Source: Candidatus Poribacteria bacterium (GTDB lineage Bacteria; Poribacteria; WGA-4E; WGA-3G). From it: DNA of 64,000 nt. The notes under the pieces were generated by a model. It worked only from the letters and a program-made list of their open reading frames with translations. It had not been told where the DNA came from and did no database searches. Position 1 is the first letter of the stretch. Each line of letters starts with the position of its first letter. Both the position numbers and the translations under genes were made by a program. Shown one piece after another: positions 8,513 to 54,449 of the stretch. The DNA is taken from assembly GCA_022827625.1 (NCBI GenBank), contig JAJEIE010000027.1:1-64000 (forward strand), written 5' to 3'.

Positions 8513-9790
8513 CTACGGCTGCCAAGGCACATTGCCCGCTTTCTGCGTTTCCACCTGAAATAGACGACTCATTTCTCTGAAGAGGTCCTGATGTGTTTCC
8601 ATATTGTTTGTCGTTTCCAGCGGATCGCTTGATAAGTCGTAGAGTTCTAAAGGTTGAAAGGGTCTGTTGTGAAGCAGTTTGATGTCGCCGCGTCGGACTG
8701 CGTGTTGGGTTTGACCGAAAAATTGTCCGCCGCCTTCCCTTCGCAACCAATAGAGAATACGTTCAGAGAAATCCTGCTGTTCACCTTGGAGCGTCTGCCA
8801 GATTGAACGTCCTTCAATCTCATTTGGAATCGGTGCGCCTGCCACTTCACATACCGTCGGGAAGAGGTCCATGAGGAGTGCGACCTGATCGGTAACATGC
8901 CCCTCTGGAATGTGTCCGGGCCACATCGCACATGTAGGGACTCGGATGCCGCCCTCGTACATATCGCCTTTCTGTCCACGCAATGGACCGTTGTGTGCGC
9001 CGACCTTCATGTCACCGCCGTTATCAGAGGAGTAGATAACAAGCGTATTAGACAACTGATCTGTCTCGACGAGTGTATCAAGGACTCGTCCGATACCGGC
9101 ATCCATGTGTTCGACGAGGGCAATGTATTTGGCGCGTTGCGGCGAGATATCCGGTTCGCGTTCGCGAACCCGTTCTACCCAATCGTCTGGGGGTTGTATC
9201 GGTGTGTGTGGTGCATTGTAGGCGAGATAGAGGAAAAAAGGGTCAGCGGATTGTGCTTGCGCTTGGATGAATTCTTTGCTCCATTCGGTGAAGAGGTCTG
9301 TGGCGTGTCCGCGCGGGTCGATTGTCTCAAAGCCGTGTCGCATGTAGTTTATATCATGCCGAAGGTGCGTGTAGTAGTCGTCCATCATGTCGCCAAGGAA
9401 GCCGTGAAAGTGGTCAAAGCCTCGCTTGCATGGATGGTTCTCAGGTTCAAGTCCAAGATGCCACTTGCCGATGAGTGCGGTGTTATAATCTTTCTGTTTC
9501 AGGGTTGCGGGAAGTGTGGCTGCGTCCTGTCGAAAGTAGCCCCAACTGTTTTCTGGGTGGGTACGGATGACGCCAGGAACACCAGCACGGTCAGGATAGC
9601 GTCCCGTCATGAGAGAGGCTCTACTCGGAGAACAGACAGAGGAGTTTGCATAGAAGTGCGTAAACCGGGTTCCCTCTGCGGCAATCCGGTCGATGTTTGG
9701 TGTTTGAATTGCGGGTCCATTGTGTGCTGAAATATCGCCGTAGCCGTGGTCATCGGCGAGAATGATAAGTACGTTTGGTGATTTTGCCAT
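8513..9790 (-). CDS. Type I (formylglycine) sulfatase
   Basis: This 425-residue member of the alkaline phosphatase/sulfatase superfamily cleaves sulfate esters from carbohydrates or other organics. It begins with the metal-binding LILADDHGYGD (Asp13, Asp14). CSPSR at Cys53 is the signature converted to formylglycine, followed by ASLMTGRYP. GKWHLG and the second metal motif YSSDNGGD are also clear. Start ATG 9790 is preceded by GGGAGATACTT; an upstream in-frame extension lacks family similarity. I see no signal peptide. The enzyme depends on a formylglycine-generating or anaerobic maturase, not seen in this window. The LamG, flippase and GH32 neighbours point to sulfated polysaccharide use. 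Confidence 0.94.
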   Translation of the reverse strand: MAKSPNVLIILADDHGYGDISAHNGPAIQTPNIDRIAAEGTRFTHFYANSSVCSPSRASLMTGRYPDRAGVPGVIRTHPENSWGYFRQDAATLPATLKQKDYNTALIGKWHLGLEPENHPCKRGFDHFHGFLGDMMDDYYTHLRHDINYMRHGFETIDPRGHATDLFTEWSKEFIQAQAQSADPFFLYLAYNAPHTPIQPPDDWVERVREREPDISPQRAKYIALVEHMDAGIGRVLDTLVETDQLSNTLVIYSSDNGGDMKVGAHNGPLRGQKGDMYEGGIRVPTCAMWPGHIPEGHVTDQVALLMDLFPTVCEVAGAPIPNEIEGRSIWQTLQGEQQDFSERILYWLRREGGGQFFGQTQHAVRRGDIKLLHNRPFQPLELYDLSSDPLETTNNMETHQDLFREMSRLFQVETQKAGNVPWQP

Positions 9791-9884
9791 AAGTATCTCC
9801 CTGTTGTCTGCCTTACAGCAAACATCCAAAAATGAGCGCAGCCGGTTGTTCAGGGAACGCCGCAGCTGCACTCAGTTACTTAAT

Positions 9885-10667
9885 CTATTGCCGGGATTTG
9901 AGACTTGCCCATGTTGTGGCAAGTTTGGCAGCAGGCTCAACGGGGAGCAGGGTCACTAACCCCTCTTCCATCAGTGCTTCTATATCGTCTACTTCCAGGA
10001 CGGAAGCGAAAATTGCGACCTCATAGAGCGTACCGTCAAGTGTCTCTGAGGTATTGTTGGTCCAACCACCGATATTAACGTCAGTGTCATTCCGAGGTGA
10101 AGGTTTACCCATGCCGCCAACAGAGCCGATTTCCACAGCGTTTTCGTAGATCTTAATAGTGTCCTTTGCGTCATAGGTTGCGGTCATGTACAACCAAGTA
10201 TCTTTTTTAACCTGTCCTTGGTTCCATGCGCCTTTCCAGCCGCCGTTCGCAAAGTAAGCTTCCCAACCCGTGCCGGTGCTACTTGTCCTGAAGGCGTAAT
10301 TTGCCACCGTACCCGCCGCGGGTCTTTTGCCGAGGATGTGTCCATAGCCGTTCTCGGATTTATTTACATAAGCCCAAGCAGTGATTGACCATTCCTCTTC
10401 CAGATACATACTATCGGAGTCTGCAATAATAACCCGATCGTTTACGCCGTTTAAACTGAGGGCAGGACCGTCGGGTCCTTTGACCCATTTTCCGCCCTGA
10501 AGTTCACCGTGATTCTCGTTTCCAGAAATATCGTTGATAACATCGCCTTTACCTTCGTCGAGTAGCCAAATTCCTCTTGCGGTTTCAAAATCAATCTCTG
10601 CATAGGTTTGCACTGAGAAAGTCAGGCTGATGGTGATGATCGCTAAGCAAACGATAATGGTTTTCAT
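9885..10667 (-). CDS. Exported LamG (concanavalin-like) protein with C-terminal TTWA tag
   Basis: This 260-residue protein starts at ATG 10667 behind a strong TAGGAGGT. A signal peptide (about 1-24, ending QTYAE) precedes a single LamG/concanavalin-A-like jelly roll (about 25-225) with GIWLLDEGKG, DISGNENHG, WSITAWAYVNKS, W..YMTATYDAKDTIKIYENA and LDGTLYEVAIFASVL. Such domains bind glycans or proteins outside the cell. The last 20 residues, LPVEPAAKLATTWASLKSRQ, match the ends of two other exported proteins in the window (29948-30715 and 53592-54449). It lies between a sulfatase and a mannonate-dehydratase-like gene on the same strand. Confidence 0.88.
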   Translation of the reverse strand: MKTIIVCLAIITISLTFSVQTYAEIDFETARGIWLLDEGKGDVINDISGNENHGELQGGKWVKGPDGPALSLNGVNDRVIIADSDSMYLEEEWSITAWAYVNKSENGYGHILGKRPAAGTVANYAFRTSSTGTGWEAYFANGGWKGAWNQGQVKKDTWLYMTATYDAKDTIKIYENAVEIGSVGGMGKPSPRNDTDVNIGGWTNNTSETLDGTLYEVAIFASVLEVDDIEALMEEGLVTLLPVEPAAKLATTWASLKSRQ

Positions 10668-29947: not shown

Positions 29948-30715
29948 TCATCTTGCCTTAATGTGTCCCCATGTGGTTGTCGCTTTTCCAGAAGGTTCGA
30001 CCGGTAGGAGCTCTCCATCCATCGATAATTTAATCTCATCTTCGGTGAGGACGGTGCTCCAGATTCTGACCTCATCAATGAGACCGTTCCACGTTTGGGC
30101 GTACCCTTCGTTGAGTGTCCCAATCCATACAGGTTTTTCGCCCTTTCCAACTTCATCTTCAGGGTGATCTACTTCGTTTTCGAGTTCACCGTTGACGTAG
30201 AGCAGTTGCTTCTTTGTGTTGCCGTTATACACGTAAGCCAGATGCATCCATTTTTTGTCTTCCAAGACGGATTCCGATGAAATTTGTTGGCCGTCTTTGG
30301 CGTTCACCCTTGCCCAGAACTTGCTCTCATTCCACGAAAAGAGATTGTAAACATCCGAATTCTGCCATGCTGCGCGTTTAGAGACGATACCTCTTGCAAG
30401 TACATCTGGTCCCAAAGGTTGAACCCAGGCTTCAACCGTTAACTGTTTCATGCCTTCGAGATCGGGACTGTGCGCGACTTCGACAAAATTCGATGCATCT
30501 CCATCAAATTCAAGGGCACCGTTGATTTTGCCCTTGACCCATTTCAAATTCCCTTGAATAGTGGCTTTATTTCCGTTGCCGGAGGCATCTTTGGGACTTT
30601 TCCCTGCACCATCATCAAAGGGCAGATAGAGCAGCAATGCCTCTTCATCGACAGCTTGTGCAGTATAGATACCGACAACAAGTAGGAGCGCAAAAATAAA
30701 AGAAAGTATACGCAT
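29948..30715 (-). CDS. Exported LamG protein with C-terminal TTWG tag
   Basis: This 255-residue protein starts at ATG 30715 behind AAGGAGAAA. A signal peptide (about 1-21, ending AQA) and a LamG/concanavalin-like jelly roll (about 25-225) are visible: LLYLPFDDGAGKSPKDASGNGNKA is the usual opening, then LTVEAWVQP, W.HLAYVYNG, YVNGELEN and NGLIDEVRIWSTVLTEDEI. The end LPVEPSGKATTTWGHIKAR matches the tag of the proteins at 9885-10667 and 53592-54449. It is likely an extracellular glycan- or protein-binding factor. Confidence 0.88.
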   Translation of the reverse strand: MRILSFIFALLLVVGIYTAQAVDEEALLLYLPFDDGAGKSPKDASGNGNKATIQGNLKWVKGKINGALEFDGDASNFVEVAHSPDLEGMKQLTVEAWVQPLGPDVLARGIVSKRAAWQNSDVYNLFSWNESKFWARVNAKDGQQISSESVLEDKKWMHLAYVYNGNTKKQLLYVNGELENEVDHPEDEVGKGEKPVWIGTLNEGYAQTWNGLIDEVRIWSTVLTEDEIKLSMDGELLPVEPSGKATTTWGHIKAR

Positions 30716-53591: not shown

Positions 53592-54449
53592 ATGAAATAT
53601 TTGCTAACACCTTATTGCGCGTGCCTAATTCTTCTCGTTTTGGTGTTTGCGGTCGTGCCGGTGTATTCGGTGGACGTAACTGTTGGATTGCTCGCCGGTA
53701 GTAATAAACTCGGTGAGGTAGAGGAGGCGGCTTACGCGTGGGCGGAGGAGCACTTCAAAACGACAACGCTTCTCGTAGATAAAAGCGGTAAATTCAAAAA
53801 CGCCGGTGGCACGGCATTACAACCAGAGGAATTTGCTGTGCTATGGCTCTTCTATACGGAAACGGATACATTACCAGAACCGATCCTCGCTGGCGCAACC
53901 ACGAAAGCGATCCATGGTTATGTAGAGGCAGGCGGAGGTCTGTTTCTCTCGGCATTAGCACTTCGTTATGTCGTTGAACTCGGGGTCGAAGATGGCGGCG
54001 ATCCGCGGGTCTTTATGCCGCTCGGCAAAGATCCACCAGAAATTGGCGTGATACCGACTGCTGATGGCAAAAAACATCCGGTTTTTGAGGGATTTGATAC
54101 CAGTGGGCCAATCTTTCTTACCAGCATGGCGCAAGCTGGGTTTACCTCGGATTTCCATAACTTCGGTGGGGGTCCGGCGGGTACAATCCTCGCAACGAAA
54201 ACACGGGGTGGGGGTGCGGGTGCTGGAGAGCGTCCATTCGTTGAATACGAGATCGGAGACGGTCTAATCATCACGCTTGGACATCACAATGGCGTTTATA
54301 CGGATACAAAATCGGAAGAAGGCGATAACCTGCAGAGACTCACCGAGAATGTGTTGAATTACCTCGCAGAAAACTCAGCATTTCTTGCTGTGGATCCTAA
54401 CGGTAAGTTGGCAACGACGTGGGGGAACCTAAAGGCATTGTCAAAATAG
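53592..54449 (+). CDS. Exported ThuA/GATase-like protein with C-terminal TTWG tag
   Basis: This 285-residue protein starts at ATG 53592 (AAAGGAGC at 53575-53582; an in-frame GTG at 53544 lacks a site). A signal peptide (about 1-26, ending PVYS) precedes a class I glutamine amidotransferase-like or ThuA-type fold: AVLWLFYTETD, IHGYVEAGGGLFLSALALRYVVELGVEDGG, HPVFEGFDTSGPIFLTSMAQ, VEYEIGDGLIITLGHHNGVY and LTENVLNYLAEN. No catalytic Cys is obvious, so it is likely a binding or structural member. The end VDPNGKLATTWGNLKALSK is the tag shared with two LamG proteins in the window. Confidence 0.8.
   Translation: MKYLLTPYCACLILLVLVFAVVPVYSVDVTVGLLAGSNKLGEVEEAAYAWAEEHFKTTTLLVDKSGKFKNAGGTALQPEEFAVLWLFYTETDTLPEPILAGATTKAIHGYVEAGGGLFLSALALRYVVELGVEDGGDPRVFMPLGKDPPEIGVIPTADGKKHPVFEGFDTSGPIFLTSMAQAGFTSDFHNFGGGPAGTILATKTRGGGAGAGERPFVEYEIGDGLIITLGHHNGVYTDTKSEEGDNLQRLTENVLNYLAENSAFLAVDPNGKLATTWGNLKALSK

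Follow-up and report, generated by a model that had tools for sequence, protein, structure and literature searches.

A short C-terminal tag on many exported proteins of Poribacteria, with a type IX-like apparatus as its candidate reader

Three tagged proteins of the window and the tag they share

The window, by which we mean the whole stretch of 64,000 nucleotides that was analysed (C30:1-64000), belongs to a 5.02-Mb genome in 41 contigs from Poribacteria, uncultured bacteria that are best known from sponges, where they are dominant symbionts; to our knowledge, no member has been cultured. Three genes for exported proteins in the window encode similar C-terminal tails (Table 1). An earlier note on this DNA had pointed to this likeness, and all three tails are present in the sequence as it quoted them; its coordinates for the two LamG genes were also right, with the minus strand left out. 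The same note had ascribed signal peptides to all three proteins, and signal-peptide-like segments are indeed seen at each N-terminus (3/3). Its further statement that the bodies differ in fold holds for the DUF4960/ThuA-like protein compared with the LamG proteins and does not hold between the latter: because both minus-strand proteins are LamG (Laminin_G_3), the tagged bodies of the window represent two folds rather than three.

Table 1. Tag-bearing genes of the window and the positions of their tags
Feature	Position	Strand	Evidence
DUF4960/ThuA-like exported protein, 285 aa, tag-bearing	53592..54449	+	translation; Pfam DUF4960 28 bits, just below the cut-off of 29.2
C-terminal tag FLAVDPNGKLATTWGNLK of the DUF4960/ThuA-like protein	54381..54434	+	profile match E 2.1e-10; alignment
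LamG exported protein, 255 aa, tag-bearing	29948..30715	-	translation; Laminin_G_3 95.8 bits; AlphaFold model
C-terminal tag LLPVEPSGKATTTWGHIK of the 255-aa LamG protein	29957..30010	-	translation; profile match, itself a profile seed
LamG exported protein, 260 aa, tag-bearing	9885..10667	-	translation; Laminin_G_3 62.8 bits
C-terminal tag LLPVEPAAKLATTWASLK of the 260-aa LamG protein	9897..9950	-	translation; profile match, itself a profile seed

When the DUF4960/ThuA-like protein was aligned with 14 relatives from other Poribacteria, the tag was invariant in all of them. The AlphaFold model of this protein was poor (pLDDT 45) and was left out of our reasoning. For the 255-aa LamG protein, the model (pLDDT 80) has a confident LamG body, and tag residues 238-255 lie below 50. 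In this model the tag appears unpacked on the LamG body, which fits a free peptide recognised in trans, low pLDDT being weak evidence in this respect. By fold, the LamG body matches jelly-roll lectin domains; kinship with the top matches, which are clostridial toxin binding domains, was rejected, as the 12-17% identity reflects a shared fold only.

We used a profile of the three tails to search the source genome and obtained at least 149 matches (149 of the 150 best candidates scored). The 1.9 Mb around profile matches were then read frame by frame, and the counts of tails and bodies given here are based on these frames. Within them, W[GAS]x[LIVM]K near the stop codon ends 143 proteins, and the consensus of their tails is L[AP]V[ED][PA]x[GD]KL[AT]TTW[GA]x[LI]K, 18 residues that are usually followed by one to four more. 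All 143 tails have the W and the last K, 137 have [GA] and 129 have [LI] between them. Upstream, the two T residues before the W occur in 106 and 108 tails, L at column -4 in 119, K at -5 in 129, V at -10 in 130 and L at -12 in 75, and columns -6, -8, -9 and -11 hold [GD], [PA], [ED] and [AP], respectively.

A second profile, made from the 143 tails, was run over the open reading frames of the 1.9 Mb at a threshold of 12 bits. Of its 154 matches, 153 lay no more than 14 residues from the stop, and the reversed frames gave none at the same threshold. The stop-proximal position and the reversed control are independent evidence for the tag; the bit scores are not, because this genome itself supplied the profile. 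At the nucleotide level, the conserved T, V, P, L and G residues are encoded by every one of their synonymous codons, so selection acts on the peptide, and origin of the tag as a DNA repeat or mobile element is ruled out by this diversity.

Signal-peptide-like N-termini, called by a simple hydrophobicity heuristic rather than SignalP, were found in 132 of 147 tagged genes (90%) compared with 478 of the 1408 other genes read (34%). Lipoprotein sorting was rejected for the tagged proteins, just 2 of 143 having a lipobox-like Cys, and so was stop-codon readthrough into a type IX C-terminal domain (CTD), none being encoded just past the stops of the window genes. A PDB search with the tag profile returned short partial or repetitive matches only.

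Tagged genes with unrelated bodies are mixed in tandem arrays at two places, with eight tags in 8 kb at C33:42418-50708 and four tags in 5 kb at C31:4852-9577. Tags are also found in open frames of 32-51 aa without a start (C24:12678, C25:90211, C29:106476 and C33:42418), which are pseudogenes or assembly frameshifts.

Variety of the tagged bodies and spread of the tag over the phylum

With signal peptide and tail removed, the tagged bodies formed 33 single-linkage clusters, of which about 30 are usable; a few are not valid tag bodies (a pair of CTD proteins makes up one, and a fragment of 85 aa another), and distant relatives may be split across clusters. LamG is the largest cluster (n = 71), and Pfam finds LamG in 75 of 142 tagged proteins, about half. 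The other Pfam bodies are Kelch propellers, PD40 propellers, 3-keto-disaccharide hydrolase-like proteins, CBM9, CBM4_9, F5/8 and DUF4960, the tagged proteins with a lamin-tail domain are about 900 aa long, and several clusters have no Pfam family at all. Judged from their sequences, the tagged bodies include predicted adhesin- or lectin-like folds. The tail itself was matched by no Pfam family and by no NCBIfam model among the leading matches listed.

Among the sampled genes, 73 of 74 LamG relatives carry the tag. Both the AlphaFold model and the existence of other body clusters rule out that the tag is simply a part of the LamG domain. More generally, the earlier note had named two outcomes that would speak against a sorting signal, namely a motif confined to a few homologous proteins or one belonging to a longer domain shared by all; the tag instead spans about 30 body clusters, is followed by the stop or, in a minority of proteins, by a separate CTD, and is unpacked in the LamG model. 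Most PD40-propeller proteins end in a spacer variant, LPVSPQPELLTTxWGxxK (L068, L069, L088, L093 and L096; cluster 3), which the main profile missed or scored low, so the true number of tags is higher than the number counted.

A 653-aa protein (L135:1620-3578, minus strand) joins an ECF sigma factor, a hydrophobic segment, a Kelch propeller and a weak tag in one chain. This arrangement suggests a sigma factor held in the inner membrane whose sensor faces outwards, and it hints that the tag may work in the periplasm for at least one protein. Because of its internal membrane segment, the fusion protein could not cross the outer membrane; its tag, as stated, is weak.

Profile matches are present in all 85 Poribacteria genomes searched, with 24 to at least 108 per genome, and in one complete genome 147 of the best 150 candidates scored were matches. 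These genomes sample ten families and 22 genera of the phylum. A search of 84,980 species with a strict DNA pattern of [ED]PxGKLATTWGxLK returned 50 stretches, each of them from Poribacteria, and the strict form of the tag is specific to this phylum. The profile of the three ends thus finds, in the source genome and in related ones, what the earlier note had expected of a sorting signal, i.e. tens of signal-peptide proteins with varied domains that carry the tag at their C-terminus. With about 150 proteins, about 30 body clusters and 85 of 85 genomes, its reading of the tail as a sorting or anchoring signal is supported.

A type IX-like apparatus and the junction of tag and CTD

We searched the same 85 genomes for components of type IX secretion. 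CTDs of the TIGR04183 family were found in all 85, SprA-like proteins in 84 (E <= 0.001), C25 peptidases above the cut-off in 84 and the PorV/PorQ family above the cut-off in all 85, the last with 6-23 matches per genome and typically about 15. GldM was represented in one of the 85 genomes by a 16.7-bit fragment and was otherwise undetected. A translocon and protease set, which the earlier note had named as the expected companion of a sorting signal, therefore does co-occur with the tag, but this co-occurrence counts as one event because all parts are universal within one phylum.

The SprA-like protein of the source genome (2257 aa) reaches 145 bits against TIGR04189 in four stretches, the curated cut-off being 200 bits. 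Given this score and the failure to find GldM, the apparatus may differ in function. The divergent sprA gene (L118:1912-8682, minus strand, contig C31) has a tagged LamG gene directly upstream and a second tagged gene in divergent orientation, and secD and secF lie about 7 kb beyond the locus. A complete genome from the same genus (G080) likewise encodes a tag just upstream of sprA, and no tagged gene was seen beside sprA in a genome of another family (G023).

Three C25 proteins of the source genome score 333-385 bits against the PorU model (cut-off 420). These PorU-like peptidases (L229:8953-16373 region, minus strand; L233:11760-16820, plus strand; L235:13664-19321, minus strand) each end in a FlgD-Ig/CTD-like domain. 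In the first region, the PorU-like gene (L229:10104-16373, minus strand) is followed by an adjacent PorV-family gene (8953-9969, minus strand), and this contig also holds sprA, about 30 kb away. In passages of a 2014 single-cell study, Por-type sorting domains are reported for Poribacteria together with an absence of Por structural genes (PMC3909097); as far as these passages go, the near-universal divergent SprA, PorU-like and PorV-family genes update that statement.

Tag and CTD meet in some proteins. In two proteins of the source genome, the tag or a close variant stands immediately before a CTD, VAVEPHGKRSITWGKIKAAEVFQ being followed by NYPNPFNPETWIPY and FSVDPTSKTLTTFGHIKQTTIFQ by NYPNPFNPETW. 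A DNA pattern of this junction is present in 58 of 85 Poribacteria genomes, and its reversed control gave 0 matches. As its flanks show, the junction is not limited to a single protein family, and the tag is conserved there; one match (L215, in genome G054), which has a stop codon between the tag and a CTD-like motif, is probably spurious. In addition, a domain of one small tagged family is found again within large CTD-ended proteins. At L060:5360-7957 (minus strand), a tag-only gene lies directly upstream of an FG-GAP/ASPIC-UnbV gene that has both tag and CTD.

Known cargo is cut by PorU in the linker ahead of the CTD (PMC11969387, PMC4804311), and the end of the tag-only proteins is the point where a CTD would start. 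The tag thus sits at the expected PorU cut, and tag-only proteins may have the C-terminus of processed CTD cargo. We also considered whether the tag is a homologue of the last CTD hairpin. The ungapped match by eye was good, but 45 of 60 column shuffles scored at least as high as the profile-profile comparison, and this candidate was rejected. Without profile similarity to the CTD tail, the tag is not a shortened CTD by homology.

Possible readers of the tag and comparison with known systems

There is good support for the tail as a functional module for C-terminal targeting or anchoring. The tag-CTD junction, the shared domains and the co-occurrence in one phylum point to the type IX-like apparatus as its putative reader, a claim to which we give even odds or slightly less. 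For the explanation as a whole, a sorting or anchoring tag with the type IX-like apparatus as candidate reader, we estimate a probability of about 0.5. A link of the tag to the type IX-like system, which goes beyond the reading of the earlier note, is plausible; the neighbouring PorU-like and PorV-family genes and the tagged genes next to sprA in the source genome also speak for it.

An ordinary Sec signal peptide would first take the tagged proteins into the periplasm. A dedicated receptor would then recognise the flexible peptide L[AP]V[ED]PxGKLATTWGxLK-x(1-4)-COOH in trans and deliver the protein to, or fix it at, the outer membrane or cell surface. The best candidate for this reader is the SprA-like translocon with the PorU-like C25 sortases and the shuttle-like proteins of the PorV family (about 15 per genome), without detectable GldM. 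One PorV-family paralogue may read the tag as a targeting signal; such a paralogue would be the obvious choice, given that different signals are read by different shuttles in Flavobacterium (PMC12618676). Tag-only proteins may be born with the C-terminus that tag-CTD cargo gains on processing. In its most specific form, the proposal would be a new unstructured sorting signal of 18 residues on more than 100 proteins per genome, read by one of the roughly 15 PorV-family shuttles of a motor-less type IX-like translocon and running parallel to the CTD route with a common end point. In this form we regard it as speculative.

Alternatively, the tag might be a docking peptide for a periplasmic or surface scaffold (an S-layer, or an outer-membrane or matrix receptor), with the type IX-like apparatus merely coexisting. 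This would suit a tag without CTD homology that stands at the extreme C-terminus, is a free peptide in the model and is conserved even ahead of a CTD, and it would also suit the one tagged protein that is anchored in the inner membrane. Nevertheless, it would then be a coincidence that tag and CTD meet in the region of PorU cleavage, and likewise that tag-ended and CTD-ended proteins have a domain in common, and we consider scaffold docking possible but rather unlikely.

We think it improbable that small proteins carry the tag as a minimal stand-in for the CTD, with the type IX-like translocon using it directly as the signal for export across the outer membrane. Tag-bearing proteins are indeed small (median 278 aa) and CTD-bearing ones large (median about 900 aa), with both classes present in every genome, and type IX export can work with about 20 residues (PMC3120885); GFP was brought to the surface by the final 22 residues of one CTD (PMC3120885, PMC4804311). 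However, the tag has no likeness to CTD motif D/E, and it is still conserved in proteins that also have a CTD, which would be redundant if the tag alone were the export signal, a point that also weighs against the type IX link. Least credible of all is a tail without function in trans, either a linker left by CTD loss or a LamG end copied by duplication. Although the tail occupies the linker position ahead of the CTD in some proteins and is nearly constant in the sampled LamG relatives, the W and K are invariant in 143 tails over about 30 body clusters, synonymous codons are freely chosen, the tail is present in all ten sampled families of the phylum, and it is not packed on the LamG domain in the model.

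Returning to the tag as a sorting or anchoring signal, its nearest comparison is with the type IX CTD (type A; TIGR04183/PF18962). Both are C-terminal on Sec-exported, varied and mostly beta-rich bodies, and Poribacteria also have type IX CTD cargo and SprA-like, PorU-like and PorV-family proteins. In contrast to the 40-90 residues of the CTD, the tag has 18, lacks the beta-sandwich and motif D/E, and can stand ahead of a CTD; among the leading NCBIfam hits listed, tag proteins had no match to TIGR04183. The tails of PEP-CTERM, GlyGly-CTERM and LPXTG proteins are likewise short homologous tags at the C-terminus of many otherwise unrelated exported proteins, but the column counts of the tag leave no hydrophobic membrane segment of the kind these tails have. 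A PEP-CTERM tail is tripartite, with a hydrophobic membrane helix and a basic end. The tag lacks such a helix, and 82 of 85 Poribacteria genomes, the source genome included, have no exosortase, so that PEP-CTERM-like systems are out; with no CTD similarity either, the opinion of the earlier note that the tag is neither PEP-CTERM nor a type IX CTD stands.

In Flavobacterium johnsoniae, distinct C-terminal signals go to distinct PorV/PorP-type shuttles (PMC12618676). The signals for such shuttles in Bacteroidota are folded domains, whereas the tag of Poribacteria is an 18-residue peptide whose candidate shuttles are about 15 PorV-family paralogues. The Por-type sorting domains described in passages of the 2014 study (PMC3909097) resemble the tag in belonging to the same phylum and in the C-terminal sorting of eukaryote-like repeat proteins; these passages cover TIGR04183 domains only and do not mention the tag. 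Our literature search, which mostly covered papers outside subscription, turned up no paper that describes the tag or type IX secretion in Poribacteria. The tag probably serves as a hitherto undescribed address label, with a sorting machine akin to type IX in the outer membrane reading it. Much of the exported proteome of Poribacteria bears the tag (about 150 proteins per genome), and with its help exported proteins could be listed from sequence alone. If this reading is true, a type IX-like system that has no detectable GldM and uses a much shorter signal besides the CTD would bear on how such systems are powered and how they choose their cargo.
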